From a virus, in the IMG/VR virus record IMGVR_UViG_3300030109_004712, positions 1-29,107 of that record: 29,107 nt of DNA, one strand, 5' to 3'. Both the position numbers and the translations under genes were made by a program. Under the pieces are notes generated by a model. It made no database searches, was not told where the DNA came from, and worked only from the letters and a program-made list of their open reading frames with translations. This document shows, piece by piece, positions 1 to 23,279 of the stretch. How positions within the stretch are numbered: position 1 is the stretch's first letter; every line of letters begins with the position of its first letter.

Positions 1-3000
1 AAAAGGTAAAAAACTTTGATTATAAAACCCAAGACCATTTTGTATATATTCTATTTGTAAAATAATTTCTTTTTCTTCTTTTGATAATTTGTCAAATTCT
101 GCTTTGTAGAAATTTATAGCGCTTTCGTTTAATGCTTCTTTATTTGCGACTTTCGGATTGTATCTTATGTTTATTGAAGACGGCTTATAATCGTCGGCTT
201 TTGTATTAACATCACTTTGTACCGTTAATAATTCATTTAAAAATTTATTATCTGGATTTTGTATTTTTAAATTTATAAACTTATTATATAATGACATATT
301 ATTATTTCCAAAAGTATCAACAGTATTTATTTGTTCTGACAACAAGCCTTCAAATTCTGAATTTATTATTTGTCCCATTTTAAGAACCTGATAGTCTTTA
401 ATTATTTTTTCTATAACTTCTATGTTCTTTTTACCTACATATTTTTGTGCAAGTTCCATGAACCTTTGAGATTCACCTGTTCTCATAAAATCTGTCGCGT
501 ATGACTTTGTCAATGATAATTGCAACATATTTTCTGCGTGTTTAACCAATGGATTGTTTTTTACACGCACCATATCACTGTCATTTAATGCTGAATTAGG
601 TGCATTTATTTTGTCTATTAAATTTTCTACAAAATAACTATTGTCATTAATGTTTTTTGAAAAATCTATTGCCTGTGTAATACTGTAAAGCTCATTATTT
701 ATATTATCAATAATCTTTAACGTATCGCTAACCTCTTTACTTACAGGCAATTTAGTTTTTTGTTTTGTTTCTAACTCTATAGTAAAAGCATCTTCTTTGT
801 TCTTAAAATAATTTTTAACATCTTCTGTATTGTAAAATTCAGCTATTGTTTTTAAGTCAAAACCCATTCTTAATAAAATAGCAAAATGTGAAGCAGTCTT
901 TTGTGTTATACCTAATCTAAAAGCGTATTGATGTTTAGCATTGTCTAATGCTATATTCAATGCTTGTGCGACAGTAAACCAGGTCATATTGTCATTATCT
1001 TGTATTCTGTCTATAGTTGTTCCTGCAATAGTAATTGGCTGATTAAGTTTTACATTTTCGTGTGCTACAATGTTTAAAGTTTTATTTAATGAAGCAATAG
1101 TACCTATGCTTTTTTTAGCTGGTATGTTATCATTATAGTATTGTGAATCTCCATATGGTGTTAGTTGACTGTATCTTTTAGATTTATTACCTTTCTCTAT
1201 TTCATTAAGTATTTGGTCTACTTCATTTTCAAAATCAATAGCTTTTTCTCTTCGTATTTTGTATTCTTCTGAAGAATAAATTTTGTAAATATTGTCAAGA
1301 ATTTTATTTACTCTTTGTTTTTTTGGTGATAATATTGGTTCTACTCCAACATATTCTGTAAATTCACTTGGATATTGTGTTTGCACATATATTGCGTCTC
1401 CATCTAAATCTGAACCTTTAATTTTTGATATTTCTTTTGGAATTGTAATTATAGACCTTGGACTATTGTTTTTTGATTTGGTGTGAAAATCTTTGACTAT
1501 ATATATTGCATTAGATGGAGGTCCGTGTACAGGTATTCTTGTTCCCAAAAATAAAGTACCTTTTTTCATTTTCATTTTATCTGTTCTATAATAATCTGGC
1601 ACTACAGCTTCACTAACAACGTAATCTCCTTTGCCTTGCTCAGATAGCTTTTCTAATTCAACTGCTAGTTCTGGGTCTTCATTTGTTTCAATCAACTCAT
1701 CTACTGTTACAAAAAATTTTAAATTCCATCCTGCACTTCCTCCTTGTATACCTATAGAGCCAGGACCTTGTAATGCACCAGCGTCATTTGATATTCTATT
1801 GTTGTATATTTTTTTAATTTTATTATATAGTATTGGTAAATGTCTACTGGCTATTTTAGATAACTCTACATTTTCTAAACCAAAACCCTCTTCTGTTATA
1901 TTTCCAACAAGTTCATTTTTTTCTTTTTTAAGTAAATTTAAAATTTGCTGCTTATCTTTGTTATTTAACTTATCATTATTTTTTATAATGTTTGTTGAAT
2001 TATTTTCTAATGTTTCTTCTAGGTCAGCTATAACGTTATCATATATTTCAGACATTAATTGTTTGTTTGATTCTGATATAACCCCAGGCAAAATGTTTGG
2101 TAATATTTGGCTTCCAAATTTTCTTTCCTGTCTTTTTCTATCTAGTTCAACCTGTATGCCTAAACCATTTCCATCAATACCTACCCATCTATAAGTGTCG
2201 GTTCCTTTATCTCCATCAAAGTACAATTCATTTTGTTTTTCATTGATAGTATTTATATTGTCTTCAAGGTTATGTATAAAATCATTATTGTATATTTTGG
2301 CAGAAGATTTAAAAGTAGCTATAACCATATGACTATGGTCTTTATCTATTCCCTGGCTTTCAGCAATCACCTCTTGTCTCGCCCTAATATCTTCTGCTAT
2401 TTTTTTTAATACAGGATTTTTGCCTTCTTCTTCTTCTGTAATTGTTTGTACATTAAATTTTAAATATGTTGGTCTTTTGTATAAATTTTTGTTTTTGTTG
2501 TTTGTTTCAATATTATAATAAACAAACTTATAAACCTCACCAACATCAATTACATCAGCAAATGAATTGTTTATATGCTTGGCCTGTTCTTGTGTAATAT
2601 AACCTACACCGTCGGTGTCCAAAATCTCAGCAGGCGTTCCTATATTTTCTCCTAAATCTTGGTAAACTAATATTTCTGCTGGAGTATCCTTGAACGGTTG
2701 TGTGTGCATAGCGGATGCTCCTTTTGCCCTTTTAATATAGTCTTTTTCATCCTTAAAATATTTGTGTTCTCCAATTAAAGATTCTTGTAAATAAAATTTT
2801 TGTATTATATTGTTTTTTACATAATCTTCAATTTGCTTACGATTGACCCTTTTTACCAATATATCTTTAAATTCATTTTCTTGCACTTCTTCAATTATTT
2901 TAATAACCTGATTATTTACATTTAAATCAATTACTAAGTCTCCGTTTGAATATGTTTTGTTTCCATACAGTTCAACAAATTTGTTATACTCTTTCTCAAG

Positions 3001-6000
3001 TGTCTTTCCCGTAAGTTTTGGCATTAATACATAATAACTTCTTTTACTGTCTGCTAAAGTACCTATACTTTGATAATAATATTTATCAGAATTGGCGTAA
3101 GAAAACAATTCTACAATAAGTTTTTCTGTGCTTGATAAACCGTCATATGATTTTTTCTTTCCTGTAGGTAATGAAAATAACCCACCATTTTGTAACAATT
3201 CTATATCTATTCCTGCGACTATCATTCTATAAACAAAATTAGCGTTAGTGTCATAATCTTGTTTGAATTTATCTGGATTTGCTTCGTACTGTTCTTTTAA
3301 ATTTCTTAATGTTTTATGTAAAGAGCTTTCTTTGTTTAATATAGATACTCTATTATTGTTTACGTCTTGTATGCCTATAACATAATTTTGTAATCTTGAA
3401 TTTTCTAATATTCCTCTGTATACATCTTTAAAGCCACCAATGTGCTGCACCCCAAAAATTTTATTGTAAAATTGATTTTTATTTTCATTTATTATATCAT
3501 GAACATACATCAACCCTTTAGTCCTATAATTTATTTTTTGAGTTTTTATAGTTTCTAAATCTAAGTGTGTTAACTCGTCAATTCCAGCAAATACTTTACG
3601 CATTATTTGTATTGCTTCTTCTGGGCCAATATTATCTTTTAATATGTTTTCTATTTGTTTGTGATAATCTGGGTTGTTTCTTAAGCTGCCGTGTTTTTTC
3701 TTTGCACTTTCAGTAGCAGCGCTTATCCATCTTTTTTCTATTGAGCTTAACATTGCCTTGCCTGTAATTTTTCCTATTTTGTTCTGGTCAAAATTAAAAA
3801 ACTTTTCTATAACTAAGCCTGAGTAGTTTAAAGCAAACCCCTCTAATATAAAATCTACTCTGTTTTTATATTCTTGGCTTTCTTCTAAAAATTTAATAAA
3901 GTCTTGTACTATCTCAACATCAGAATCTCTAAGTATTTCCGCATACTCTGCTGGAGAAGCTGCTCTGTTTGCAAATGATGTTTGTAGAAAAACTTTTCTT
4001 AGTGTGTTTAGCTTAACCAGATTATCTTTTGTGCTTCTGCTTTCTGAGTATGCATTTAATATATCCCTATATTTTTTACTTTCACTCCAGTTTTTATCAT
4101 CGTAATTTATTCCTATATCTTCATCTTCTTCTATTACTGTGTCTTCTAATTCTAAAAATTTATCTAAAGTATCTGTAATTTTCTTTTGCTGAAGTCTTGC
4201 CTTTATATGATTTTGTATAAGTTTTTGTGTTTTTTCATCTACATCAGGCGCTCCTAGCTCTTCATACAGGTCTCTTGTTATGTTTATTAGTTTTACATTG
4301 TCATTGACTTTCTCATTTTTATATTTGTCAATAATTTTTTCTAACTGTGCCTGATACGATATTCTCTTAAATAATTTTCTTTTGTAGTTTATCTTTTTAC
4401 CTTTTTTTGAATTTGTTACATTTGGAACTACAGATTTGTCTGCAAAGTTTGCTAACACATATTCAAAAGCGCTTTCAAGTGTCATGTCTTTTGTTTGGGG
4501 CACAGCAATGGTCAATAACTGTTTTGCTTCTTCTTCAGTTGGAGCACCCTTTTTAGTAGACTTCCACATTTTTTTAATTTCATTTTCAAACTGCTCAACA
4601 TCTTTTTTATTAGGAAGTATAGAGTTAATTCCGTCTTTAGCATATCTTTCTAATGTAAATGCAAACGTTTCTTCTAATATACCCTCTTGTTGTGCTTCCT
4701 TAAGTTCTGTAGCTAATTTATTATCTACTATAAATTTATTAAAGTTGGTAAAAGCAATCAGCATGTCCTTTTCATTTTTAGCATCTTTAATTGCTTTTAT
4801 TACAACGGCTAATTCTGAATCAGTACCTTTGTTGATTTTCTCTTCTAATATATAATATATTTCTCCTGATGTAAGATTTTGTTTTCCAAACTTAAACATT
4901 ACATAATCAGGATAATTTTCCTTTATAGTATTGTAAAGCTCAGTTTTTACTAAAAGCTTATTAAGTGCCTTTATAAATGGTGTGTTTTTGTTTATTTGAT
5001 AATAAGGATGCCCTAATTCATGTATTAGGCCTGTTTGTAGGGCTTCGTTGGTTGTTACTAGTACCACACTACTCATGACTAATGAAGTTTGCTTAAATCC
5101 AAAAGAATCTAAAAACTCATCTTCTACAACTACTATTTTTTTGTTTGGAAATTTTTTGTTTATGTGGTCTCTAAGAGCTACTTTGACGTAATTATATTTA
5201 TCAAGCTTAAATTCTGCTTCACTAAATCCAGAATCTTCTCTATATTTTATTTTATCAAATAGTGTTGAAACTGCTGCTTTTGTTTTGGAAGCTGCGCTGT
5301 ATAGAGTTTTGTATATTACTGAACCAACTGTTTTTAAAAGACTGTCTTTAGAGTCTTCTACTTTAATTTGGTCTTTTTTTTTTACGTCTTCTTTAGACTC
5401 AACCCCTTGCATTTTATTATAAAGTTCATTAAACTGCTGTTCAGTTAAAGTCCTTATAGGCAAGCCTCCTGCCGCATCTGTAGCTATTTCTGAAACTGTA
5501 TAAAAAATACTACCATCTGTCATTTCTTCTACTACTATTCTGTATCCTTTACCTTCGTATTCAAAAGATTCAGTTCTGGTTTTTGCTAAATCAGTTTTTT
5601 TATCATATTTTTTATAATTTGGGTTGCTGTCTTTTCCTTCTATTCTTTCATTATAACCTGAATTTTCTGATTCAATATCATTTCTAATATCTTCAGGTAT
5701 AGGGTTTTCTTTTTGTGTTGTTTCTGCTTGTTCTTGTGTTTCAGTTACATCTTGGAATTCTGCGTCTATAGTTTCTTCCATAGTGGCATCACTATTGTTG
5801 TCATATTTATTTTTGACGTACTGCCTTACATAATCATATAAAGCTTTTGTTTTTCCTTTAATGTCTGATGCTTTTACAGCAGCAACAGCGGCTGCTTGAG
5901 CCTCAGCTAGTGTCATTTTTGATTTGTCAACGGCAGTATTTACTACGCTTCCTACACTAGTCATAATTGACTTTAAATTTTCGCCTTGTTTTTTTGCAAA

Positions 6001-8088
6001 TGCACTATCTTTAAATTTAGTTGCAGCTGCTTTTAATTCTTCTGATATTGTTTTTACTGTTTCTTTTGGTGCTTTAACTGCATCTACAACTTTAGTTGCA
6101 GCATCTTTTACTGCTCCTACTGCTCTTTGTATTATACCAGGTTTTTCTTCTTCTGCTTTTTCCACTTCTTCTTTTGAAAACTTTTCGTATTCTTCTTGTG
6201 ATAAACCTGTAGAAGATTTTTTAGGCACACCCTCCTTAGTTAGCTTCTTTCTTTTTAATTTATATATATTGGCTATTCTTGATTCCGATGTAGCAATATT
6301 TTTTCTTATGGCATTCTCTGCTACTTCTCCAAACTCTTCTTCTATTTGCTCAAGTCTTTCTTGTAAACCTTGTGGGTCATTTTTAAATATTTCATTTGCA
6401 TTTTTTATTGCTTCTTCCTTGCTTTCCTTTAAAACTTCAAGTTGTGTTTTTTGTTCTTCTACATAAAGCTGCTCTCTAAATATTTCAGCCTTTGCATTGT
6501 CCATTAAATTTTCTTCTACATTGTATCTATTGTAAATTTCTTCATATTTTTCAATAGCCTGAATATAAGCGTCATGTGTTTCTTGTGATATTCTGGTGTT
6601 TGATAATTGGTCTGCTAAGAAGGCTCTAGCGTAGTCTCCACTTCCATTATGGTCTATAATTGATTCTGCTAAAGCTTTTTCTGTATACTTCAATTCCCCA
6701 AGCTCGTTTTCTCCGCCTATTATATTATTTGCTTTCTTTTTCTTTTCTCCTAATTGATAGCTTCTTTCTGCTTGAGCATCTATAAAACCACCCTGAGCAC
6801 CCATAACTGCACCTAAAGCAAAAGAACTTACTCTTGTTTCCATCATTTCTGGCGAAGCAAAAAATTCACTATATGACATAAAGTCATCGCCTTGATTTTC
6901 AGCTATAGCTTTTCTTTTAATCCATTCTTGATATACTTCTTGATATTGCTCAAAGCCACCTTCAACTGCCGCAAGCCCTGCTGTGTTAGCTAGTATAGGT
7001 GATATTTTAGCTAAAAAAGATTTTTTGTCTGCTCCGAATTTTGATAAGCCAGCAGTAATTCTACCTAAACCTCCAAAAGCAATTCCAAATTGCACTATGT
7101 CAAATGCCATCCATTTCATATTGTCTAAATAAACGTTTGCCGCTATACTCTCTGCTGCTTTATCTCCTAAGCCTTTTTCTTTTGCTTCTCTCATTGCTTC
7201 TCCTGCAACATATGCCCCTTCTGTTAAGTTACCAATCGTACCTCCCCCAATTAAAGTTGAAGTAAGTTTACCCGCTTTAGTTAATTGAACTCCTTTTGTG
7301 CCCGCATCAAAAGCTAGTTTTCCTAATATACCTGAACCTTTTGTTTTAAATTCATAGCCCTTAAGCCCTTTGCCCAACTTCCCATATTTTCCTGCTGCTC
7401 CTATCAAAAGTCTTCCTCCTAGTCTTGCTCCACCAAAATATGGAGCAACAAAAGATATAGCGTAAGGCAATAACCTTGCAACTTTAGTAGACCAAAATTC
7501 TTCATTTGCTAAATCTGCCCAAGTAACTTCGTCTAAAGATGCGTCTGCATATACTGCATTATTATTTTGTATTTTTTTTCCTGTTTCTCTTAACCAATTA
7601 CCAATACTAGTTTCTACTTTTGCTTCCCATGGTGTAATTAAAGCTGCAAGAAAATCAAAAGAATTTCCCGTACCTTCAACTAAATCACCCCAACCCGCAA
7701 CAAAACTTCTTGATGCGTCTGACCTAAAACCGCCTATTACTGCGTCAGGACTTGCAAATTGCTGGTCCTCTGCTGTGCCTCTTTGCAGCTCCCTTATTGG
7801 CTGTATGTCTCTTTGTTGGATTGCTTGACTTGCTTGCTGTCTAGCCTGTATATCTAGTCTATTATCTTGAGCAGCTCGTACATTTCTTAAATCTCTTAAC
7901 TGACTTAAATTAAATTTTTTTGTTTGTGGTTTTGATAATCCTTGGTCATATTTTTCAATATCGTCTTCAGGCTCTCCTACATCTAATCCAGCAGCTTTAC
8001 GTTCTTGGAAATCTAATACCTTCTTAGCATTGCTAATAGCCTTTGGGTTTCTAAACGCAAGGGTTGAAAATAAATCTATTTTATCCAT
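1..8088 (-). CDS. Giant virion RNA polymerase / metalloprotease polyprotein (3' end outside window)
   Basis: I translated this frame by hand from the ATG at 8088. It stays open for 2696 codons to position 1 with no stop, so the C-terminus lies outside the window. Seen in order: hydrophobic Gly/Ala-rich stretches at about residues 203-234 and 324-347; charged coiled-coil-like helices at about 500-640; alanine-rich amphipathic helices at about 646-760; a zincin signature HELGH at 1023-1027; a basic cluster followed by FGSQ at about 1984-1994; RIPVH at 2184-2188; and GSDLDGD, with aspartates at 2227, 2229 and 2231. The last two match the order and spacing of the catalytic double-psi beta-barrel of cellular RNA polymerase beta' (RAPTLH, then NADFDGD) and of eukaryotic RNA-dependent RNA polymerases (DLDGD). 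crAss-like phages such as phi14:2 package a giant single-chain polymerase of this superfamily, so I infer a virion-ejected early-transcription polymerase. The start overlaps the previous stop (TAATG), implying translational coupling. The polymerase call is strong; the protease and membrane roles are less certain. Confidence 0.85.
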   Translation of the reverse strand, partial: MDKIDLFSTLAFRNPKAISNAKKVLDFQERKAAGLDVGEPEDDIEKYDQGLSKPQTKKFNLSQLRDLRNVRAAQDNRLDIQARQQASQAIQQRDIQPIRELQRGTAEDQQFASPDAVIGGFRSDASRSFVAGWGDLVEGTGNSFDFLAALITPWEAKVETSIGNWLRETGKKIQNNNAVYADASLDEVTWADLANEEFWSTKVARLLPYAISFVAPYFGGARLGGRLLIGAAGKYGKLGKGLKGYEFKTKGSGILGKLAFDAGTKGVQLTKAGKLTSTLIGGGTIGNLTEGAYVAGEAMREAKEKGLGDKAAESIAANVYLDNMKWMAFDIVQFGIAFGGLGRITAGLSKFGADKKSFLAKISPILANTAGLAAVEGGFEQYQEVYQEWIKRKAIAENQGDDFMSYSEFFASPEMMETRVSSFALGAVMGAQGGFIDAQAERSYQLGEKKKKANNIIGGENELGELKYTEKALAESIIDHNGSGDYARAFLADQLSNTRISQETHDAYIQAIEKYEEIYNRYNVEENLMDNAKAEIFREQLYVEEQKTQLEVLKESKEEAIKNANEIFKNDPQGLQERLEQIEEEFGEVAENAIRKNIATSESRIANIYKLKRKKLTKEGVPKKSSTGLSQEEYEKFSKEEVEKAEEEKPGIIQRAVGAVKDAATKVVDAVKAPKETVKTISEELKAAATKFKDSAFAKKQGENLKSIMTSVGSVVNTAVDKSKMTLAEAQAAAVAAVKASDIKGKTKALYDYVRQYVKNKYDNNSDATMEETIDAEFQDVTETQEQAETTQKENPIPEDIRNDIESENSGYNERIEGKDSNPNYKKYDKKTDLAKTRTESFEYEGKGYRIVVEEMTDGSIFYTVSEIATDAAGGLPIRTLTEQQFNELYNKMQGVESKEDVKKKDQIKVEDSKDSLLKTVGSVIYKTLYSAASKTKAAVSTLFDKIKYREDSGFSEAEFKLDKYNYVKVALRDHINKKFPNKKIVVVEDEFLDSFGFKQTSLVMSSVVLVTTNEALQTGLIHELGHPYYQINKNTPFIKALNKLLVKTELYNTIKENYPDYVMFKFGKQNLTSGEIYYILEEKINKGTDSELAVVIKAIKDAKNEKDMLIAFTNFNKFIVDNKLATELKEAQQEGILEETFAFTLERYAKDGINSILPNKKDVEQFENEIKKMWKSTKKGAPTEEEAKQLLTIAVPQTKDMTLESAFEYVLANFADKSVVPNVTNSKKGKKINYKRKLFKRISYQAQLEKIIDKYKNEKVNDNVKLINITRDLYEELGAPDVDEKTQKLIQNHIKARLQQKKITDTLDKFLELEDTVIEEDEDIGINYDDKNWSESKKYRDILNAYSESRSTKDNLVKLNTLRKVFLQTSFANRAASPAEYAEILRDSDVEIVQDFIKFLEESQEYKNRVDFILEGFALNYSGLVIEKFFNFDQNKIGKITGKAMLSSIEKRWISAATESAKKKHGSLRNNPDYHKQIENILKDNIGPEEAIQIMRKVFAGIDELTHLDLETIKTQKINYRTKGLMYVHDIINENKNQFYNKIFGVQHIGGFKDVYRGILENSRLQNYVIGIQDVNNNRVSILNKESSLHKTLRNLKEQYEANPDKFKQDYDTNANFVYRMIVAGIDIELLQNGGLFSLPTGKKKSYDGLSSTEKLIVELFSYANSDKYYYQSIGTLADSKRSYYVLMPKLTGKTLEKEYNKFVELYGNKTYSNGDLVIDLNVNNQVIKIIEEVQENEFKDILVKRVNRKQIEDYVKNNIIQKFYLQESLIGEHKYFKDEKDYIKRAKGASAMHTQPFKDTPAEILVYQDLGENIGTPAEILDTDGVGYITQEQAKHINNSFADVIDVGEVYKFVYYNIETNNKNKNLYKRPTYLKFNVQTITEEEEGKNPVLKKIAEDIRARQEVIAESQGIDKDHSHMVIATFKSSAKIYNNDFIHNLEDNINTINEKQNELYFDGDKGTDTYRWVGIDGNGLGIQVELDRKRQERKFGSQILPNILPGVISESNKQLMSEIYDNVIADLEETLENNSTNIIKNNDKLNNKDKQQILNLLKKEKNELVGNITEEGFGLENVELSKIASRHLPILYNKIKKIYNNRISNDAGALQGPGSIGIQGGSAGWNLKFFVTVDELIETNEDPELAVELEKLSEQGKGDYVVSEAVVPDYYRTDKMKMKKGTLFLGTRIPVHGPPSNAIYIVKDFHTKSKNNSPRSIITIPKEISKIKGSDLDGDAIYVQTQYPSEFTEYVGVEPILSPKKQRVNKILDNIYKIYSSEEYKIRREKAIDFENEVDQILNEIEKGNKSKRYSQLTPYGDSQYYNDNIPAKKSIGTIASLNKTLNIVAHENVKLNQPITIAGTTIDRIQDNDNMTWFTVAQALNIALDNAKHQYAFRLGITQKTASHFAILLRMGFDLKTIAEFYNTEDVKNYFKNKEDAFTIELETKQKTKLPVSKEVSDTLKIIDNINNELYSITQAIDFSKNINDNSYFVENLIDKINAPNSALNDSDMVRVKNNPLVKHAENMLQLSLTKSYATDFMRTGESQRFMELAQKYVGKKNIEVIEKIIKDYQVLKMGQIINSEFEGLLSEQINTVDTFGNNNMSLYNKFINLKIQNPDNKFLNELLTVQSDVNTKADDYKPSSINIRYNPKVANKEALNESAINFYKAEFDKLSKEEKEIILQIEYIQNGLGFYNQSFLPF

Positions 8089-9953
8089 TATCTATTTAAA
8101 TATTTTGACCAAAGTTTTGCTCTTTGTTTAATTATATCAGCTCTATCAGGGTTACTTTCTTGTAACCACCTAAAGAAAGCATTTGTATCACCACTTTTTA
8201 ACATTTCATAATATTCTTTAATTTCAGGATTTTCTGAAGATGCTATTAAACCAAAAGCTTCTATATCTTGTGTCAAATCATCAAATTGTGTTTCTGATTT
8301 TGGGTTTAAATTATCTAAAATTTCTGACAATACCAAAGGTAACATTTTTTGGTTTATACCGATAGACACCATGCTTGTATTTAAATTTTTTCCAAAAACA
8401 TCGTATACTTGGTCAGCGCCGCCTTCCATGCCTCCAGCATATAGTGTTGCTAACTTTTCTTTAGTTTTTATTATAGATTTTTGTTTAACCGCTTCTTTTT
8501 CTCTTAATTGATTATTTCCTGCTAATTGATTTTTTACAGTTGAAAAAGCATCATTAACGTTTTTATCGCTAGCTAAAGTTGCTAGTAAACTTTCTGACAT
8601 TTTTATCTCTTCATAATATACGTCGTCAAATATAATGTCACTTTCTTCATAGGCCGCGACTAATGTTGTAGTAAATTGAATGTTAGAATAATTTTTCTTT
8701 ATTTCTTCCATTTTTGATTTGTTACCCTTAGTCAATAAAAAGGTTTCTTTTTCACCAGTATCTATATTTTCACCAAAAACTTTTTGCGCAATAAACATAC
8801 CTTGATATTCTAAATCATAGGAATCACTTTCAACATCAAAAAAACCTACATCATTATCTTTTATTTCATCACCTCTAAAATTAAATAATCCTACGGCTTG
8901 TTTGTCATTTATTTCTATACTGCCATTCTTTTTTCTTTCAAGCTTTCCATTTTGCCCACCATTTTGATGACCAAGTATTATCAATTCAATGCTAGGTGCA
9001 TTTGTCAAAACTCTGTTGGTTGCGTTGAGCTGTAAGCCATTCTTAACTGGGGGTGGTCTGTTATCGTCATAACCAAAAGCACTGTCCATAGCTATGTCTG
9101 AACCAGATGTGCCTCCTTCATATAAATCCACATAATTTTGACTTGCAGGGTCAGATATTACTGGAGCTCCTTGCAATAGGTTGACTAGCATGGTTCCTGG
9201 TGTTGTTTCTATTTCCATAGTACCAAACATTGGCATTCCTTCATCAAAATTTGTAGCACTTCTATACCAGTTTAATATGTACGCCTCTGGAGTGTTTTCA
9301 GGATTTAAACCAGTATCCCTTCTAAAATTATCCCATACCGCATGCTTGTTATTATTGTAAAAATCTCTAATATCAACTCTTTGATTTACAGGTAATCCGT
9401 CTAAAAATTCAGATTTTGACATTTCACTCATTGTTCCCCTGTATGTAATTCTATCTACTTCACCTCTTTCGTAAGCCTGCAAATTAGCTATATCACTTGG
9501 AAATAAGTATGCATGAGTTTCTCCATCTGCTTTTGCCTGAAACATTTTAGCCAAGTTATCTTGATTTTGACTTAGTCTTGTTACAATTTCGTTGTTATTT
9601 AATTTGTACTGATAATCAGCAACTAATCTATCCAAACCATTTGCTACAGCTCTTTCATATGAACCATACTTTTTAATCATGTCGTTTATTGGAGTCATCA
9701 ACTCTTGTGCGTAGTTTTGAACTGCCTCTTTATCTTGAGGCCTAACCCCTTTGCCTCTAACTACAGATTGCGCTAATTTATTAGCCTCATCTATAACTTG
9801 TTGTTGATTTAATCTATAATTAGTTTCATTACGCATATCCTGCTCTTGTTGAGCAAGAATTCTTTCTGCTATAGCTAATTCTTGTTGTTTAGTTTGTTTT
9901 TTATCAGCACTGCCAAAAAACCCTCTTAATGATGTATAACCTCCAAAATCCAT
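8088..9953 (-). CDS. Putative internal virion (cargo) protein, 621 aa
   Basis: I do not recognise a named family. The protein is soluble-looking, with no signal peptide or membrane segment. The first 140 residues are rich in Gln, Lys and Glu and probably helical (coiled-coil-like), and the rest is mixed. It lies between the lysozyme-domain gene, 3 nt upstream, and the giant polymerase gene, whose ATG overlaps its TAA by one base. In crAss-like phages, genes at this position between the muzzle and the giant polymerase encode proteins carried inside the capsid and ejected. That role is inferred here from position and helical composition only. The start at 9953 is the first Met after the upstream stop and has an A/T-rich leader without a Shine-Dalgarno sequence. 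Confidence 0.75.
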   Translation of the reverse strand: MDFGGYTSLRGFFGSADKKQTKQQELAIAERILAQQEQDMRNETNYRLNQQQVIDEANKLAQSVVRGKGVRPQDKEAVQNYAQELMTPINDMIKKYGSYERAVANGLDRLVADYQYKLNNNEIVTRLSQNQDNLAKMFQAKADGETHAYLFPSDIANLQAYERGEVDRITYRGTMSEMSKSEFLDGLPVNQRVDIRDFYNNNKHAVWDNFRRDTGLNPENTPEAYILNWYRSATNFDEGMPMFGTMEIETTPGTMLVNLLQGAPVISDPASQNYVDLYEGGTSGSDIAMDSAFGYDDNRPPPVKNGLQLNATNRVLTNAPSIELIILGHQNGGQNGKLERKKNGSIEINDKQAVGLFNFRGDEIKDNDVGFFDVESDSYDLEYQGMFIAQKVFGENIDTGEKETFLLTKGNKSKMEEIKKNYSNIQFTTTLVAAYEESDIIFDDVYYEEIKMSESLLATLASDKNVNDAFSTVKNQLAGNNQLREKEAVKQKSIIKTKEKLATLYAGGMEGGADQVYDVFGKNLNTSMVSIGINQKMLPLVLSEILDNLNPKSETQFDDLTQDIEAFGLIASSENPEIKEYYEMLKSGDTNAFFRWLQESNPDRADIIKQRAKLWSKYLNR

Positions 9954-9956
9954 TTA

Positions 9957-11729
9957 TTATTCTATATTTGATTCTAATCCAGGTGCAGTAAATCCTGTCA
10001 TTTTATTATTTATATAATCTAAATATTTTCCGTATGGCCCCTGCATAGCCCTTCTGTCACTTATACCATCCATAACATATGAAAAAGCACTAGATGCAAA
10101 TTCTCCTGCCGCCTTTTTATTTTGTAACTGCATTGATAGTTCTTCTTGTCTTTTTGCTAAACTTTTGTTTGCGTTGTACTCTTCTGCATATTTTAATAAT
10201 CCTAAATGATTACCCTGATTTTCTCTTTTTACTCTTGCGTCTTCTGCTGCAAACTTAAGTAAAGCATTACTACGATTTGCATCTAAAACTCCTGAGCCTG
10301 CTAAAAACTTAGCTCTATCACCAGCTGTACCTCTAACCATATTATCCAAGCCTGTTCTGTAAGCCATATCAATGTCATCTCTTATAGCTCTTTCTTCCTC
10401 TGGTGTAAAACCTATTTTAGATAGTTGTTCTGAATTATACATATATTGTTTGAATGCAGCTGACAATTCAGGATAATCAGGTACATTAATTTTTTTCATA
10501 GAATCTTTATATCCTTTAGCTCCCATAACACCTGCAATAATAGAAGAAACACCACCTAAACTATCAATTAATCCACCTAAATCACCTAGTGCAGTTCTTT
10601 GCTTTGGTTTTGGCTGTTCTTTTGTATCAAGCTGTGCTTCTGGTTCTGTTTGTACAGTAGTAGGAACTTTTAAATCAGCATCGTACTTATTCCTTTCTTC
10701 AGCAGTTTCAAATATTCTACTTTTATCTTTTGATAAAAATCCATAGCCATTATCTTCTAAATACTTACTATATTCTTCATCGCTTAAATCATCAACGTTT
10801 ATTTCAGCTTCTTTTTCTTCAATCTCTTCAACCACTTCAGCTGCCCTTTGTTGTTCCTCTTGCTGTTTTCTTTGGTTATATCTTTTTCTTGCGTCTCTTT
10901 GTAATAGTAGTTGCGTATAATTAGGGTCCTCTCTATCTACAATACCAAAGGGAGTAAGCCTTTGCCCTCCTCTTACTAAAAAATCACCATCATCACCAAT
11001 AATATAAAACTCTCCATCTCCTTTTGCTCCTTGTGGTCTTTGTTTAAATTTTAACAAACTAGGATTGTCACCAATCTGTATTGGTCTAGCTAAGTCTACT
11101 TTGTCATAATTTTTATAAAAATCATCCCAGCTAGTAAATTTTTGAACTATACCCTTATTTTCTTCAACGCTTCTTTCTATATCGCTTCTGTCAACATCTT
11201 CTCCTTGTGGGACACCTCCTGATATTACTTCACCATCAGGCCCTATTATTGGTGGGCTGTATGTTACTTCTGGAGCTTCTTCTTTTTTTGGTTCAAACCA
11301 ATCTTCATTTTTATAATCTTCTAATACAGCAATTCTTTCTTCTGCTTTTTTTTCTTTGTCTTGTGGTCTTTCCCAATTTATTGTAAACCATTTAGATGCT
11401 TCTTCTGGTGTACTAAATTGTATACCCATGTAGGTTTGAGTATCTTTTTCTGTTAATGCATAATCTATTTGACCTTTCCAATTAGTTTCCCAATCTTTAT
11501 TTTTATACCTGTCATTTCCTTGTTTGTCTTTACCTGTAATCCAATCAAGCATTGCATCCCTACGCGATAGATTATGTTGAAATAATCCATAAGAAGCTCC
11601 ATTGTCACCTATATTGTTTACAATAAAAGAACTTTCTGCCTGTATATTTACAATCATACCTAAGGCATGATTTCTTGTCAAACCTTTACTAATTAAATAA
11701 TTATATATTTTTTCTTTAGAAACTGTCAT
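9957..11729 (-). CDS. Virion-associated lysozyme with long C-terminal virion domain, 590 aa
   Basis: The N-terminal 140 residues look like the phage tail lysozyme fold: a helix ending in the probable catalytic Glu32 (NIQAESSF), then GDNGASYGLFQ at 42-51 and an Arg-rich helix. In this family (Pfam 'phage tail lysozyme', lysozyme/transglycosylase-like) the Glu after the first helix cleaves the peptidoglycan glycan strand. A Pro/Glu-rich linker follows, then a Gln/Glu-rich coiled coil around 290-320, a Gly-rich hydrophobic stretch (LIDSLGGVSSIIAGVMGAKG) around 385-405, and a helical C-terminus. The gene overlaps the upstream 513-aa gene by 4 nt (ATGA). Location among ejection genes suggests local cell-wall opening at infection rather than host lysis, and no holin is nearby. 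The lysozyme domain is well supported; the function of the C-terminal 400 residues is unknown. Confidence 0.85.
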   Translation of the reverse strand: MTVSKEKIYNYLISKGLTRNHALGMIVNIQAESSFIVNNIGDNGASYGLFQHNLSRRDAMLDWITGKDKQGNDRYKNKDWETNWKGQIDYALTEKDTQTYMGIQFSTPEEASKWFTINWERPQDKEKKAEERIAVLEDYKNEDWFEPKKEEAPEVTYSPPIIGPDGEVISGGVPQGEDVDRSDIERSVEENKGIVQKFTSWDDFYKNYDKVDLARPIQIGDNPSLLKFKQRPQGAKGDGEFYIIGDDGDFLVRGGQRLTPFGIVDREDPNYTQLLLQRDARKRYNQRKQQEEQQRAAEVVEEIEEKEAEINVDDLSDEEYSKYLEDNGYGFLSKDKSRIFETAEERNKYDADLKVPTTVQTEPEAQLDTKEQPKPKQRTALGDLGGLIDSLGGVSSIIAGVMGAKGYKDSMKKINVPDYPELSAAFKQYMYNSEQLSKIGFTPEEERAIRDDIDMAYRTGLDNMVRGTAGDRAKFLAGSGVLDANRSNALLKFAAEDARVKRENQGNHLGLLKYAEEYNANKSLAKRQEELSMQLQNKKAAGEFASSAFSYVMDGISDRRAMQGPYGKYLDYINNKMTGFTAPGLESNIE

Positions 11730-13267
11730 GCTTTACCTTGTTTTTTCCAACTCTCTATATTCTTTTTTATAATCTTTGTCATTTCACTGTTGCTCATTCC
11801 AGGTTTAAATTGTTTACTTGCTTGGTGATAAATACCAGCTCCATTATCTGCTTTTAAACCTGTGTCTTTTCCCTCTTTGTCAAGTACGGCTCCAGTAGAC
11901 ATAATAGGCATCGGATTACTATCATGACTTGCATTACCTTTTGTTACTTTACCTTCAGCTAAAGTTTGTTTCATTAAGTTTGCTGGAGTTTCTTTATCTC
12001 CTTTTGCAATAGCTTTTTCTATTTTAGCTTGTCTTTTTGCTGGCATTATAACTTCATTGCCCGTAACTTCTGCTACTTTCATTCCTTTTTCAGCTGTTTT
12101 GTAAAAACTATCCTGCTCTTCTTGTTGTCTTTGTAAAAATCCTCCAGCATCTCCTGCATCTCCTCTTCCTTCTATTAATGCGCTTCTTTGAGATGCACCT
12201 GCTAAAAACTGCCCCTGGTTTATAACAGGATTAGGATTCATTGGAGCTCCTTGTAAAAATCCTTGATAATTAACAGCAAAAGGATTAGAAAAAAACGGAG
12301 TTGGCGCTGAAGTTATTTCATTTTCTTGAAATCCCATAGAACCCATACTTGGAGAGCCACTTGTTTGTGTAGAGCCGTAACCTGGTGCTGAACCTCCTGT
12401 TTGCCCTGTTCCCATACCCTGATAATTAAAATGATAACCTCCGTGTGCGTATGACGGAGTGTAAGCCATAGCTGAGGTTTGCTCCATACCATATGGATTG
12501 TCAAACATGCTTCTCATTTTTAAATATTCTTCTTCCTCGGCTTGTGCAGAAAAATCTTCTCTATTTTCAGCATACAATTCAGCTATTTCTCTTTGTCTTT
12601 GTTCTTTTGCAGCTTTTATAGCTGCCTTTTGCTTCTTTTTACCTGCTCTCCATCCAAAAAATGCTCCTGCCGCTATTCCTAAGGGTCCTGCCACACCTAA
12701 TAATGAAGCTATTGTTGCTCCTGTTCCTGCTCCTTGTATTCCTGAGCCTAATTGCTCTGCCGCTGTATATGTTGTAGGGTCGTCATCACCAAATATTTCT
12801 TTTATACCATAACCCACTAATGCCGTTCCAATTCCTGGTCCTACTCCAGCAGCTGTCCCGCTTGTTATATTTCCATAGTATTTAGAAGCCGCAGCCCCTA
12901 AGGTAGTGGATGCTCCGCTACGCCCGAATGTACCTTCTGCAAAAGGTATTTGTTGTGAAGAAAAACTTGCATTTGGAAATCCTTTTCTTAATAAAGAAGA
13001 GGCATATGGTTCCCATTTACCGTAGTTTGCTGCAAGTGTCCCCAAAGCAGTCACAGTAGCTGTATCAGCTGCTGTTGTATCTGGCTCTTCAAATTGACCT
13101 CCTGCCTGAACTATTGCTTGGTCTAAAGAACTTTTTTTATCTAAGACATCGCCATAATTTTTATAAGCCTCAAATGAAGGGTCTACTCTTTTGTAAAAAT
13201 CTTCATCTTTTTGAGTATAATCTGTATACCCTTGTTGTTCTAATTTTCTTAAATCTCTTATTGACAT
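11726..13267 (-). CDS. Glycine-zipper membrane/ejection protein, 513 aa
   Basis: The middle of the protein is strongly Gly/Ala-rich, with GxxxG spacing from about residue 120. It culminates in a hydrophobic segment at about 178-205 (ASLLGVAGPLGIAAGAFFGW) that is closed by a basic KKKQ cluster and a charged helix. This is a likely membrane-inserting hairpin or bundle. Residues about 265-320 are a Gly/Tyr/Ser/Gln low-complexity tract. The C-terminal 120 residues are soluble and charged. No signal peptide is present. It follows the muzzle gene with a 1-nt TAATG overlap and uses the only TGA stop in the window. I infer a DNA-ejection or pore-forming virion protein, comparable in role (not in shown homology) to internal ejection proteins of P22 and T7. 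A simple holin is less likely, given the size and position. Confidence 0.75.
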   Translation of the reverse strand: MSIRDLRKLEQQGYTDYTQKDEDFYKRVDPSFEAYKNYGDVLDKKSSLDQAIVQAGGQFEEPDTTAADTATVTALGTLAANYGKWEPYASSLLRKGFPNASFSSQQIPFAEGTFGRSGASTTLGAAASKYYGNITSGTAAGVGPGIGTALVGYGIKEIFGDDDPTTYTAAEQLGSGIQGAGTGATIASLLGVAGPLGIAAGAFFGWRAGKKKQKAAIKAAKEQRQREIAELYAENREDFSAQAEEEEYLKMRSMFDNPYGMEQTSAMAYTPSYAHGGYHFNYQGMGTGQTGGSAPGYGSTQTSGSPSMGSMGFQENEITSAPTPFFSNPFAVNYQGFLQGAPMNPNPVINQGQFLAGASQRSALIEGRGDAGDAGGFLQRQQEEQDSFYKTAEKGMKVAEVTGNEVIMPAKRQAKIEKAIAKGDKETPANLMKQTLAEGKVTKGNASHDSNPMPIMSTGAVLDKEGKDTGLKADNGAGIYHQASKQFKPGMSNSEMTKIIKKNIESWKKQGKA

Positions 13268-16200
13268 TAATTATAGGATTTTCTAAACTTTGCAAGTATT
13301 GCAAAGATATTAAATTTTTCTTTAGTCTTAGCTGTTATAGTATTTTCTAGGTATGTCCCTCTCATTCTTTGTTTAAAGTTACCTGGATTAGAACCAATAG
13401 GGTTACCTCTTAGATTATATCTTAATATACCTTCTCTATATTTTCCTCTACCTAAAGCAGTTACATCTGGAGTTAAAATTATCTGTCTTTGTTCTTCAAC
13501 TAAATCTGTTTTAAAATCACTAAAATTTAATTGAGAACCCGTTTTAATAATTTGCATATTATCAAAAACTTTAGTATCCAAAGACGCATCATTTATTACG
13601 TGTGTTATTTTAGCATCTTGTATTAAAACATCATCATCAATAAGCGGCTCTACAGCTATTACTTTTGCCGCTATAGGTGTACCAAATGTAGGTATCTCAT
13701 CGTAGAAAAAATGGGTTTTGCCATTTCCTAAATCATCTAAAGGATGTTTTCCCCATTCCCATAATTCTAAAGACCCAAATGCATAACCTCTTGGATTTTG
13801 ATTCAATATACCTGTTGGATAAGAGCTTCTTCTTCTAGGTGTATATAATTTATTCATGTGTAAAATCCATTGCTGAGGTGCTACAGACCATTTTGTTGTA
13901 AATGCTTCAATATTCTCATTATAAATCAAATTAAAATACCCAGATGGATAACCATCTGCATCAATTTTTCTTGTTCTTGGTCCTCCGCTTGAATTTTGTG
14001 TGCTTTCTGCTTTAAATGTAAAAATTACATCTCTTTTTAAGGGGTCGTAGCCTGTTGATATTCCTTCAAAGGCTAAAGGTAAATCAGACTTATGTAATCG
14101 TTCTCTTCCAACTAGTTCGCCTAAAACTGTATTGTTAAAGTTTTGATTATCTAACAAATATTTATCTATTTGATTTTTAATCCCTTTACTGTCTGATAAA
14201 ATGTTAATTGCGTTGTTTTTAAAATTTATAATTTTTCTACTTGAAACATCAACAAAATAAATTGAATCTTCCGTAGTTAATAAACTGCTTTGATGTCTAG
14301 TCCCGTACTGTGTTGAAATATATGTATGTGATTCTATTGTTTCACCTGTACCAGTAAATAAAGATGTGCCTTGTGCTTCATCAGCTATAAAAGTTCTAGG
14401 ATTTACTAATAGTTTTCCAAATCCTTTATCTTGTGTAAAATATATTTCGTTTTGAAAATTAAATAAATTATTTATTTGACCTTGAGCAGCTTCTACATCA
14501 TGAAAATTAAATATTGGAAATGTTCTAAAAGCGTCAGCTGTTTCTCCTGACAATTTAGTTTCGGAATAAGCTATCTCAAATGGTAGCTCAATAAATTTAC
14601 ACCCTTCATCTGTAATTGTTAAATATCTTTGTAAATTATTTTCTTGTGAATAAACATCATTGTATATCCAATCATTAGTAAATGGAGCTGTAGTTAAATC
14701 AAAACCTTCTTCTGTATCTCCAGCGGCTAGATGTAAGCCTGAACGCATGTCTGTGTTTACATAAGATTCCACTGGAAATACATTCCAAGTTGAATATGAT
14801 TTATCGCTAAAAGGAGATAATGTTTTTTGATGTGAGTATAAATTTACAAAAGTATCTCCACCAGCCACTCTAGAAAGATGGTGCTCTGTGTCAATATCTT
14901 TATTTACTCTATGAAAGTTTCCTGCTGGAATATAAAGTGTATCATATATTGCATCCCTATTAGCTCCTCCGTATTGATTCTCATTTATACGTACAATACT
15001 ACATAAATATTTGTATGGTATTTTTTGATAATGAGCATCTAAAGTACTTGCCTTGCTTTGTGAATTGTCAAACGTGTCTTCAGTTAGTGCAGTCTTAATA
15101 TCTCTTAATATTAATGGAACTTGAGTTTCTACTATAATGCTTCTGGTTCCTGTCTGTATTGTTGAAACATTATCATACTCTGTTTCGTCTTTTGTTATAT
15201 CTGCGCTTAAAATACCAAATAAATTATTTTTTCTAGTTCCGCTTCTTTTTGTAAATCCTAATCCATGATTTGACCAACCATTATATAGTGACGTAGCCCC
15301 TTGTTTAAAAAAAGAAGGCGATATAATTTCTCCCGCTGTAATTTCTTTTGAATTACTTATTGCAGTAGATTGAACTAAACTTCTAGTAAACCCTACTTCG
15401 GATTGCGATGTCAAAGGGTAATAGGTTTTACCACTGTCTGTCACACCATCACTAGTGTAAGCTTTGTCTGCATATGCTCTAACAGTTAATGATTGATGCT
15501 GTAATGCTTTAACATAGCAATTAAAATACGTGTCATATACAGAAAATTTGTTTATTATAATTCCTGAATTTTTGTCTGCATCAGTTTCTTTTATAGCTGA
15601 AAACTCTACGCTATCATCCCTATTTGTTGTTGTTCCTGAACGAAGATGGTTTTCTGTAGTTAAGTTATTAGTATTATGTAGTTTTAAAATAGCATCTACT
15701 CTAAGTCTATCCCCATCTCTAAATTGATAAGGTCTAATTCCAAAAGCACTGTCTGGACAATCTAAAGTTCCTACGTGGTTATAGAATTGGTATGATGGGC
15801 CAAAAGAAACTCCTGATTTCCAAGAAAATTCATGACTACCACCATAATGACATTTACCAAAGCTTGATATTTTTGAACCTCCAATAAAATCATCTTCCAC
15901 AGCAGTGTCTCTAACATCACCTTCTTTGTAATAATTTGTCAAATTACTTGTATCGTCAAAATCGTCAGCTTTTTCTGTAGTTGTGTCTAATCCAAAGTAA
16001 CCATTTAATAAATCATCATATGCAACACTTACAGACTCAACTGGAGTATTAATATGTTCTTGTATATGGTCTAATTCTAAAGTTTCATTTAAATTTGCTC
16101 TAGTGTCATACCCATCTGCTCTGTCAGTTGTAGCTCCTGTAGGCTGTATACCGTACCTGTTAGAAAAATTGTATAAGCCTTGCTGAATTATACTTCTATC

Positions 16201-18390
16201 TTCTTCATTTCTTTCTGCTCTTACCACTCTAAACCCTGATATTTTATTACGTACATCATTTGGTATCCTAAATTCAAAATTTACATGCAAGTCAAACAAA
16301 TGATGTTGTGCTCTATCTCCTGGAGGCCTAAATCCTGCTCTTTGTCCAGTTAAAACAGATGAAGTACTACCATCATATCGTTGTGGGTCGTAATGCCTTT
16401 TGATATGTGGTACAGTTTCTCCCGAACTAATTGATAATCTGTAATCTTCTGTATGACTATTTTCAATGAAACTTGCATCTCCAGCAGCTGAACCTAATTG
16501 ATGATTAGATAAATCTAATTCATAGTGGGCATCATAATGCATAGGCATTTGTAAGTCGGAAATCCATAAAACATTACCAGGATTCCCGTTTAAATCATAA
16601 ATAAGAACTCCAAACCTGTAAGTTTCGCCTCTTTGATAACCCCTAAAAGAGCCAGCTATTTGTGGGTCCTTTGAACCACTAAAAGACAAGGTGCTCCTAT
16701 AAACTGTGCTTCCATTTACTACATTTGAAAATGTTGATGGGTCATTATCTCCAGCTATATTGTCTGTTTCTAAATCATCAGCCGATTCGTTTGCGTCAAT
16801 ATAGTTTGTTGTTGTCATTACACCACCATTATTGTATCTAGTGTCTGCCATTTTTCTTTTTAATGCAAAAGTTACTCTGCATCCTCCTAATAAGTTATTT
16901 GCAAAATCATAACTTTCTCCGCCTAGTACATTTCTTCTTACCCCACCAGCTAAAGGCTGCTGCCCTAAATATCTGTGTGCTCCAGCACTATAATCGTACG
17001 TACCTAAATCATCATAACTACCAAAACCATCTGTCCTGTCCTTACTAATGTCAATACCTACCGCTCCCGTATCATAATCAACTCCACCCAATCCTAAAGC
17101 AGTGCTAAATCCTTGCAAGTCACCACTTCCGTCTATATAGTAGTTTTTAATATCTTCTCCAAAATCACAAGTAATTCTAGCTTTATTTCCAGCTTGATTA
17201 AACCTTAATAAAACCACATTCCATTCTTTTTCAGTAATATAATTTTGATTTTGTCTTAAATTTGCAGCAAAAAGAATATTGTCTTTTATAGCTATATCTT
17301 TACAGACATCCCAAGTGTTACTTCTAATCAAAACATCTTCCAGTCCATTTTCAATAATATTTTCAAAATTAGTATGCTTGAATGTTATCGTGCTTGATGA
17401 GATAGCTCTTCTTGAAACTTTAGCAACTACTGGTGGTATATCTAAAGACTCCCATAATAAAGCATATAATTCAATGTTATCATAGTCTTGGTCTATATCA
17501 TATATTCTTATTGAAAATCCATCTCCCGATAACTGTCCTTTTGGTCCACCAAAATATGATTTATAGCTTGCGCTACTTTGATTACTAATATGCATTAAAT
17601 TACTTAATGGACTCATTCCTGTTTCAGCGCCATTATCATTTACATATTTATATCCATATTGGTAAACACCTACAGGCAATCTTCCAGACAAAATAGCATT
17701 CATCACTGGCTGATTCATATCTGCTTTTGGCGTAATGTTCAACTCATCTGGCTTAAGTCCGTATAAAGATTTGTTAATTAAGTTTAAAGTTCTTAGTGGA
17801 TTAACATTATCTGTAAAATATATTCTATTCAAACATTCGTTTTCTATAATACCTTCAACTTGTACAGAAACTTCAGGGGTCATGTTTAAATTTGGATGTG
17901 TATTAATTACTGTTGCACCATTATAATCACTTTCTTCCCATGCTACCTTTAAATCAGTTATTTTTTCAACTTCACCATCTTGGTTAAACTCAAGCGTTAA
18001 AAATATAGTTTTAAAATCAAACACATCTGTAGACTCGTCAGTTAAGCCTACTATTATTAAAAGTAATGTATTGTTGTATGAATAATGACCTACTATATTT
18101 GCATAATAGCCAGGTGCTTTACCAAATATTGCATTTTGAAACGGAAAATTTATAACACCCCCTTGCCAGTAAGTATTAAAAGCTTCTGTGTTTTCAATAG
18201 TCATTGCTGTATTGACTATATCTAATGTAAGTATATTACCGTTTACATTTTCTACAGTAAAAGTAGAGCCATCAGTGTTAATTAGCTGTATGTTTTGTGC
18301 GTCTCGGTATGTACCTGGCTCTTGGTATCTAGGGTCATTATCCGATACCATACCCTTAGTAAAAGTAGTGGGATTGCTTTTCTGTGCCAT
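13267..18390 (-). CDS. Tail muzzle/nozzle ('stabilization') protein, 1707 aa
   Basis: The N-terminus has the pattern I associate with the 'stabilization protein' family of Bacteroidota phages: FTKGMVSDNDPR at 10-21, then GTYRDAQNI at 26-34. A second family-like block, LPVGVYQYGYKY followed by NGAETGMSPLSN, lies at about 235-265. The rest is beta-rich, with many Gly, Asn and Asp turns and no membrane segment. In crAss-like phages the equivalent very long protein (gp44 in phicrAss001, as I recall) forms the muzzle at the distal end of the short tail, analogous to T7 gp12 or P22 gp10 nozzles. Its position after a ring protein gene and before the ejection genes agrees. Its ATG overlaps the upstream TAA (TAATG). 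Family membership is likely; the muzzle assignment is inferred from recognition and synteny. Confidence 0.8.
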   Translation of the reverse strand: MAQKSNPTTFTKGMVSDNDPRYQEPGTYRDAQNIQLINTDGSTFTVENVNGNILTLDIVNTAMTIENTEAFNTYWQGGVINFPFQNAIFGKAPGYYANIVGHYSYNNTLLLIIVGLTDESTDVFDFKTIFLTLEFNQDGEVEKITDLKVAWEESDYNGATVINTHPNLNMTPEVSVQVEGIIENECLNRIYFTDNVNPLRTLNLINKSLYGLKPDELNITPKADMNQPVMNAILSGRLPVGVYQYGYKYVNDNGAETGMSPLSNLMHISNQSSASYKSYFGGPKGQLSGDGFSIRIYDIDQDYDNIELYALLWESLDIPPVVAKVSRRAISSSTITFKHTNFENIIENGLEDVLIRSNTWDVCKDIAIKDNILFAANLRQNQNYITEKEWNVVLLRFNQAGNKARITCDFGEDIKNYYIDGSGDLQGFSTALGLGGVDYDTGAVGIDISKDRTDGFGSYDDLGTYDYSAGAHRYLGQQPLAGGVRRNVLGGESYDFANNLLGGCRVTFALKRKMADTRYNNGGVMTTTNYIDANESADDLETDNIAGDNDPSTFSNVVNGSTVYRSTLSFSGSKDPQIAGSFRGYQRGETYRFGVLIYDLNGNPGNVLWISDLQMPMHYDAHYELDLSNHQLGSAAGDASFIENSHTEDYRLSISSGETVPHIKRHYDPQRYDGSTSSVLTGQRAGFRPPGDRAQHHLFDLHVNFEFRIPNDVRNKISGFRVVRAERNEEDRSIIQQGLYNFSNRYGIQPTGATTDRADGYDTRANLNETLELDHIQEHINTPVESVSVAYDDLLNGYFGLDTTTEKADDFDDTSNLTNYYKEGDVRDTAVEDDFIGGSKISSFGKCHYGGSHEFSWKSGVSFGPSYQFYNHVGTLDCPDSAFGIRPYQFRDGDRLRVDAILKLHNTNNLTTENHLRSGTTTNRDDSVEFSAIKETDADKNSGIIINKFSVYDTYFNCYVKALQHQSLTVRAYADKAYTSDGVTDSGKTYYPLTSQSEVGFTRSLVQSTAISNSKEITAGEIISPSFFKQGATSLYNGWSNHGLGFTKRSGTRKNNLFGILSADITKDETEYDNVSTIQTGTRSIIVETQVPLILRDIKTALTEDTFDNSQSKASTLDAHYQKIPYKYLCSIVRINENQYGGANRDAIYDTLYIPAGNFHRVNKDIDTEHHLSRVAGGDTFVNLYSHQKTLSPFSDKSYSTWNVFPVESYVNTDMRSGLHLAAGDTEEGFDLTTAPFTNDWIYNDVYSQENNLQRYLTITDEGCKFIELPFEIAYSETKLSGETADAFRTFPIFNFHDVEAAQGQINNLFNFQNEIYFTQDKGFGKLLVNPRTFIADEAQGTSLFTGTGETIESHTYISTQYGTRHQSSLLTTEDSIYFVDVSSRKIINFKNNAINILSDSKGIKNQIDKYLLDNQNFNNTVLGELVGRERLHKSDLPLAFEGISTGYDPLKRDVIFTFKAESTQNSSGGPRTRKIDADGYPSGYFNLIYNENIEAFTTKWSVAPQQWILHMNKLYTPRRRSSYPTGILNQNPRGYAFGSLELWEWGKHPLDDLGNGKTHFFYDEIPTFGTPIAAKVIAVEPLIDDDVLIQDAKITHVINDASLDTKVFDNMQIIKTGSQLNFSDFKTDLVEEQRQIILTPDVTALGRGKYREGILRYNLRGNPIGSNPGNFKQRMRGTYLENTITAKTKEKFNIFAILAKFRKSYN

Positions 18391-19418: not shown

Positions 19419-19428
19419 AACTAATATT

Positions 19429-19908
19429 TTAAGCTGTTGTAGCTACTACAACTTCAACTTGCACATTAGCCGAAGCGGCCTTAAGAAATATCTCATCTAT
19501 GTCGCTCCATCCGCTAAATGCGCTTCCATTTGTGAAAGCTTCTACCTGCGTGTCTGTAAGTAATAAGCTAGAATCGGCATCAACTAATATTGCGGCAGTA
19601 TCTGCGCCAGTGTCTTCTAATATAACAGCAACACCATTTGTGTCATCAAGATTTGTAATTCTAATGTACTCTACTGCGCTTCTTAGGAATGTTCCAGGAG
19701 CCGAAGCTGCTGTTCCTCCAAAGTCTATTACTTTTACTTGATTTGTGTTTGGTAAATTTAGAACTCTAGTATTTAGTTGGTCTATATTTGCAAAAGTTTT
19801 TGTTACTGTTTGACTGTGCGTTCTATTATCAGCACTTGTACTGTGTGTCATTGTTAATGACTCAGTTATCGTTACTGTTAATGTACCGCCTGTAATTCTT
19901 GTTGCCAT
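19429..19908 (-). CDS. Small beta-rich virion protein, 159 aa
   Basis: I recognise no family by name. The protein is rich in Thr, Val, Ala and Asp, poor in Lys, and predicted to be all beta, with no signal peptide or membrane segment. Such composition is usual for tail or decoration proteins. It lies 10 nt upstream of the ring protein gene and 10 nt downstream of another small beta-type gene, so it is part of the tail/neck run. A tail-fibre attachment or ring-decorating role is possible but not shown. Confidence 0.75.
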   Translation of the reverse strand: MATRITGGTLTVTITESLTMTHSTSADNRTHSQTVTKTFANIDQLNTRVLNLPNTNQVKVIDFGGTAASAPGTFLRSAVEYIRITNLDDTNGVAVILEDTGADTAAILVDADSSLLLTDTQVEAFTNGSAFSGWSDIDEIFLKAASANVQVEVVVATTA

Positions 19909-19918
19909 ATTTTAATTT

Positions 19919-20245: not shown

Positions 20246-20248
20246 AAT

Positions 20249-21587: not shown

Positions 21588-21606
21588 AGGTATTGTAAAA
21601 TTATTA

Positions 21607-21673: not shown

Positions 21674-21696
21674 AATGCAGCAGGGAGCTAAAATCT

Positions 21697-23028: not shown

Positions 23029-23051
23029 TTTATTATTTTTTAAGTTCCCTG

Positions 23052-23258: not shown

Positions 23259-23262
23259 ATTA

Positions 23263-23270: not shown

Positions 23271-23279
23271 AAGAATTTT

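Follow-up and report, generated by a model that had tools for sequence, protein, structure and literature searches.

A giant phage protein with a DxDGD loop very probably joins a phi14:2-type virion RNA polymerase to homologs of its neighbors and a putative metalloprotease

The virion RNA polymerase (RNAP) of phage phi14:2, called gp66 in the literature, corresponds to gp77 (AGO48955) in record KC821624 and to PDB entry 6vr4. In that record, the genes for gp78, gp77, and gp76 are adjacent, and the annotation gives their products as virion proteins identified by mass spectrometry (KC821624). The phiCrAss001 virion contains gp47, gp49, and gp50, all three associated with the RNAP (PMC10172136). 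An RNAP gene reaching approximately 6,000 aa counts as a hallmark of the crAss-like group (PMC10136315). The RNAPs of crAssphage LMMB, cr1_1, cr56_1, and Dulem virus 42, all of which read D-F-D-[IV]-D at the catalytic loop, lie in chains of approximately 4,000 to 5,600 aa. The fusion of the RNAP to neighboring parts is itself already known, since LMMB has two fusion proteins, annotated as "RNAP catalytic subunit/RNAP subunit fusion" and "RNAP associated protein/zincin protease fusion".

Other giant or two-barrel polymerases share some of these traits. Flavobacterium phage FpV4 gp32, a virion structural protein of 4,287 aa, likewise combines a two-barrel motif and an HExxH within one giant chain, although it reads LDYDID and FRTPT and its HExxH comes after the motif, whereas that of the protein described here comes before it. 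P23-45 gp96 is a virion RNAP with DFDGD that unites the tape measure of a long-tailed phage, a metallopeptidase, and the polymerase in one giant chain (PMC10770324), but it has a different clamp. The RNA-silencing polymerases RDR2 and QDE-1 have two double-psi barrels per chain and a trigger-loop lysine, with DLDGD in RDR2; they are cellular RNA-dependent enzymes without virion modules.

The DNA analyzed here (the window) is a 29,107-base virus record with a single co-directional structural block. Ahead of a giant gene at its end, we found the following features.

27305..29107, minus strand: portal protein (phrog_6547, E 2e-91), its 5′ end cut by the window edge
24580..26145, minus strand: major capsid protein of the crAss type (Crass_capsid, PF23898, E 3.4e-37)
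13267..18390, minus strand: muzzle/tail protein, homolog of phi14:2 gp82 (hhalign 96.9%, 1,061 columns)
8088..13267, minus strand: three co-directional genes (621, 590, and 513 aa) between the muzzle and giant genes, candidate cargo or ejection genes by position
9957-11729, minus strand: second gene upstream of the giant gene (590 aa), encoding a phage tail lysozyme domain at its N terminus (PF18013, E 3e-18)

The phage thus carries the crAss-type capsid, portal, and muzzle expected of the Crassvirales. Its portal, which is approximately 766 aa at full length in relatives, was nearest to gut crAss-like portals (approximately 33% identity, E down to 4e-70). Profile comparison of the three cargo-like genes with phi14:2 gp79-81 was negative. 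Given the PF18013 domain of the 590-aa gene, this cargo block seems to include a part that cuts peptidoglycan. Judged by eye, two small adjacent genes next to the capsid gene, at 23903-24202 and 24228-24554 on the minus strand, resemble paralogs, having GDDGA in common and a similar layout, and perhaps encode head decoration proteins. The giant gene comes after the structural block, as the RNAP genes of phi14:2 do, and its features are listed below.

1..8088, minus strand: giant open reading frame (ORF), 2,696 codons in the window, ATG at 8088, 3′ end cut off
6892..7521, minus strand: N-terminal region homologous to gp78, residues 190-399 (blastp E 6e-6 to phi14:2 gp78)
5008..5022, minus strand: HELGH (residues 1023-1027), the HExxH of a putative zincin metalloprotease
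4669..4674, minus strand: E1139-E1140, 115 residues past the HExxH, a pair that may provide the third zinc ligand, as in gluzincins
376..3345, minus strand: two-barrel RNAP core, residues 1582-2571 (VIA match to 6vr4 over model residues 42-1031)
2728..2742, minus strand: DYIKR (1783-1787), with D, Y, K, and R invariant, candidate basic residues of DPBB-B (the beta-like barrel)
1375..1764, minus strand: double-psi beta-barrel DPBB-A with the catalytic loop, residues 2109-2238 (VIA match to the designed barrel 7du7)
1525..1539, minus strand: RIPVH (2184-2188), with R and P invariant
1396..1416, minus strand: GSDLDGD (2225-2231), the catalytic Asp triad, with Gly as in cellular and RDR enzymes, aligned to GSDFDID of phi14:2
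934..948, minus strand: LDNAK (2381-2385), with K2385 as the trigger-loop Lys by alignment to phi14:2

No stop codon lies between the ATG and the window edge at position 1, in agreement with the preliminary description of this DNA, which had put the ORF at 2,696 codons or more, running past the window, and had proposed finding its C terminus in a longer contig. That C terminus is provided by the nearest relative (L003/L018, 75 to 76% identical, from an IMG/VR contig of 51,402 bases), whose gene is complete at 3,508 aa with the motif at residue 2150. It follows that approximately 810 to 890 codons lie outside the window, which leaves out the C-terminal quarter of the giant protein and all non-structural genes; from the relatives, we estimated a full length of approximately 3,500 to 3,700 aa. 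Against this same relative, the dN/dS ratio of the giant ORF was approximately 0.17 (dN 0.16, dS 0.97), showing that the frame is under purifying selection.

Very probably, residues 1582-2571 make up a DNA-dependent RNAP of the phi14:2 gp66 type, with two barrels in a single chain, fused to a gp78 homolog and a putative HExxH metalloprotease on the N-terminal side and, in the relatives, to a gp76 homolog on the C-terminal side. The two motifs that had first suggested a polymerase, RIPVH at residue 2184 and GSDLDGD at residue 2225, were both confirmed, and GSDLDGD is the sole DxDxD in the 2,696-codon chain. When the protein was shuffled 2,000 times, a DxDxD appeared in 43% of the shuffles and a DxDGD in 2.8%, but R-x-P followed by DxDGD 35 to 50 residues on appeared in none, so that the ordered pair is beyond chance, whereas DxDxD alone is not. 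In a 21-member family alignment, most members of which are approximately 20 to 30% identical to the window protein, R2184, P2186, D2227, D2229, G2230, D2231, K1786, R1787, and K2385 were invariant. H2188 was only nearly so, other members reading RIPTSK or RVPADK; what had been described as an Arg-Pro-His block is thus an Arg-Pro block. In phi14:2, the corresponding stretch reads RIPNQ. K2385 matches K1615 of phi14:2 (VDNAK; numbering checked), the trigger-loop lysine that is also found as K923 in RDR2 and K1119 in QDE-1 (PMC8713982).

Profiles of the family assigned three parts of the chain to three phi14:2 proteins, in the order of the phi14:2 genes. Among the phi14:2 proteins, the N-terminal piece matched gp78 only (hhalign 92%, 5e-7, 252 columns; L018 129-435 to gp78 124-403) and the core piece gp77 only (97.7%, 2e-12), the latter also matching the RNAPs of LMMB and cr112_1. 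The C-terminal piece, taken from relatives since it lies beyond the window, matched phi14:2 gp76 (95.5%, 1.5e-8, 282 columns) and, weakly, cr112_1 gp5. With gp78-, gp77-, and gp76-like parts sharing one chain, the transcription block in this lineage is a single polypeptide, whereas LMMB divides it between two genes and phi14:2 among three, the gp66 chain of the latter needing no gp78 or gp76 parts.

The HExxH domain is probably a metalloprotease, judging from its conserved residues: H1023, E1024, H1027, E1139, and E1140, the last two being candidates for the further conserved ligand expected of such enzymes, were all invariant. The HExxH stands 1,199 to 1,379 residues ahead of the motif in 44 of the 50 members that are long enough; in phi14:2, gp77 has no HExxH and gp76 has HEIMH. 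The structural model of this region was poor (pLDDT 55), and no zincin was among the matches listed by a fold search with that model. A sub-branch of six long members (L089, L090, L091, L092, L094, and L109) lacks the HExxH at the usual place while the chain is still complete, so the HExxH is not required everywhere.

These data bear on the possibility that the giant chain is a polyprotein, cut by its HExxH domain, once packed or ejected, into products like gp78, the RNAP, and gp76. The invariance of the HExxH and the downstream Glu pair in alignments of 20 and 21 members would fit such a role, as would the separate genes for the three parts in phi14:2. However, no cleavage site was identified, the six members without the HExxH remain single chains, the zincin fold model is poor, and the zincin of crAssphage LMMB lies in another gene. 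We therefore consider processing of this kind rather doubtful, though still the most credible of the alternatives.

The reading of the core as a phi14:2-type RNAP is borne out by its predicted fold. We modeled residues 1541-2696 with AlphaFold from 24 family sequences (pLDDT 74, pTM 0.69), and the best solved match of the model was the phi14:2 virion RNAP 6vr4 (VIA Z 18.4, root mean square deviation 3.9 Å, 877 residues), followed by P74 gp62 (Z 12.3), maize RDR2 (ZmRDR2, Z 12.1), P23-45 gp96 (Z 10.6, 316 residues), and QDE-1 (Z 10.3). Foldseek also put 6vr4 first (E 3e-17) and QDE-1 second (5e-7), and crAss-like proteins were best in a BFVD search. The designed double-psi barrel 7du7 matched model residues 569-698 (VIA Z 10.7, 2.2 Å, 85 residues), and designed double-psi barrels together with the p97 double-psi domain matched model residues 569-741, i.e., 2109-2281 of the window protein, at approximately 2 Å, which places a double-psi barrel on the motif. 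The preliminary description had made its polymerase reading depend on such a barrel, and the barrel is present in the model.

In sequence, the core is only approximately 16 to 18% identical to the phi14:2 RNAP. The profile-profile comparison with DFDxD crAss-like RNAPs, including that of phi14:2, nevertheless gave 99.6% (E 1e-23, 613 columns, hhalign) and paired GSDLDGD with GSDFDID and LDNAK with VDNAK. Searches of Pfam and PHROGs with the giant protein gave nothing above noise. Sequence searches of the PDB, in which this protein, a profile of 24 members, and the stretch around the motif served as queries, gave no polymerase match, and even 6vr4 was missed by the profile. When 50,697 phage records were searched by tblastn, the window protein matched Dulem virus 42 only, at the motif; family member L098 had no match, and member L107 matched annotated RNA polymerases of crAss001-like phages (E 1e-4). 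With a fold closest to 6vr4, homology of the core sequence, and the DxDxD triad, the protein belongs with the phi14:2 gp66 family. It departs from the narrower DFDxD spelling by reading DLDGD, a spelling that we do not treat as defining because FpV4 also departs from it. As a separate observation, reading TAG as Gln in Dulem virus 42 (L002) opens one frame of 5,634 codons at 7212-24116 with HEAFH and GSDFDVD; the record annotates many short hypothetical proteins there and misses this recoded giant crAss-like RNAP.

The preliminary description had also likened the motif to that of eukaryotic RNA-silencing polymerases. This likeness holds for the loop letters, which are the same as the DLDGD of Arabidopsis RDR2 (PMC8713982), but not for the whole fold, which is nearest to gp66. 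It could be taken to mean that the enzyme copies RNA templates as the silencing enzymes do, and RDR2 and QDE-1 are indeed among the best solved matches. On the other hand, the fold is clearly closer to the DNA-dependent phi14:2 enzyme than to either of them, so that membership in the RDR/QDE-1 family is not indicated, and the DNA-dependent P23-45 gp96 also has DFDGD, from which it follows that the DxDGD loop does not specify the template. An RNA-templated polymerase is thus very unlikely.

A giant chain with an HExxH domain in a structural block, together with the tape-measure precedent of P23-45 gp96, might suggest that the protein serves solely in structure or ejection, as an inner core, channel, or tail tape component with a polymerase fold that has lost its activity. 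This is just as improbable, because a divergent family keeps R2184, P2186, K2385, and all three Asp of the triad invariant, where drift would be expected had catalysis been lost. A role in ejection on top of catalysis would be compatible with these observations.

For the phi14:2-type RNAP that we favor, we infer the following course of packaging, ejection, promoter use, and activity in the host. Homology to the phi14:2 proteins suggests that the giant chain would be packed in the virion with the DNA, extruded via the portal and tail, and refolded in the cell, so that three proteins packed separately by phi14:2 would move as one polypeptide. The refolded RNAP would transcribe the early genes ahead of a host-dependent phase, using a presumed metal-binding triad (D2227/D2229/D2231) carried by one double-psi barrel, the basic residues of the second barrel, and K2385 as its trigger-loop lysine. 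The HExxH domain may aid envelope crossing or may cleave the chain into working pieces.

To our knowledge, crAss-like phages in general read DFDxD at the catalytic loop, which we checked on ten named or deposited records; nine of them have G[SA]DFD[IV]D, in keeping with the preliminary description, according to which crAss-like proteins often read DFDxD, and FpV4 has DYDID. Scans of IMG/VR for relatives of the window protein yielded 41 loci and then 63 loci, with complete members of approximately 3,500 to 4,150 codons from stop to stop, of which approximately 1,360 to 1,680 residues lie past the motif. All 55 relatives with a readable motif had D[LMK]DGD, and environmental relatives of the other kind had DFD[IV]D. 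The 63-locus scan used the motif among its patterns and is therefore biased toward DxDGD. A search artifact does not explain the dominance of DxDGD, since the 41-locus scan, with off-motif patterns, still gave 33 DxDGD, 6 DFD[IV]D, and 2 unreadable loci. A scan of genome contigs for a host-linked copy gave 303 pattern matches and no relatives. Four loci (L006, L008, L009, and L012) were chance matches of the GSDxDGD DNA pattern and were ruled out by context. Three viral contigs (L010, L013, and L014) with GCDFDGD[IS]LY look like a separate YonO- or RdRP-like phage polymerase family.

The proposal that DxDGD marks a distinct lineage gained support from a tree of 59 cores, in which a single branch with support of 100 parts 44 DxDGD cores from 15 with D[FY]D[IV]D; this tree is unrooted and has long branches, making any finer reading unsafe. 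The portals agree, being 56 to 91% identical to that of the window within the main lineage and 34 to 35% identical in DFD[IV]D contigs. The capsid profile scores approximately 120 bits in the DxDGD lineage versus 480 for DFD[IV]D phages, a difference that may put the lineage at a basal position in the Crassvirales or outside the order. One outlier, L113 (G039, 77,139 bases), encodes a giant RNAP with GADLDGD and RVPSNG, but its portal is merely 28% identical to that of the window, and it is possibly an independent or transferred case. While the RNAP family and giant fused RNAPs were already known, what is new is an environmental clade that is coherent and combines the DxDGD loop with a transcription block in one chain.

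Cellular RNAPs have the glycine of DxDGD. Since this glycine is also found in RDR2 and P23-45 gp96, the simplest reading would be that D[IV]D arose from an older DxDGD. The phi14:2 study reportedly proposed a phage origin of RNA-silencing polymerases. It is conceivable, though distinctly unlikely, that the DxDGD lineage diverged before the known crAss-like phages swapped the catalytic Gly for Ile or Val and is the surviving phage branch with the active-site chemistry nearest to the proposed ancestor of those polymerases. The glycine that RDR2, P23-45 gp96, and the cellular enzymes have in common is missing from the crAss-like enzymes that we checked, and the DxDGD lineage offers a direct comparison within the same fold, allowing one to ask whether the shift to DFD[IV]D changed catalysis or template choice. 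In addition, trees of two-barrel polymerases gain a deep branch with this lineage, whose one-chain arrangement provides a simple object for studying how a protein of approximately 400 kDa would pass through a portal.
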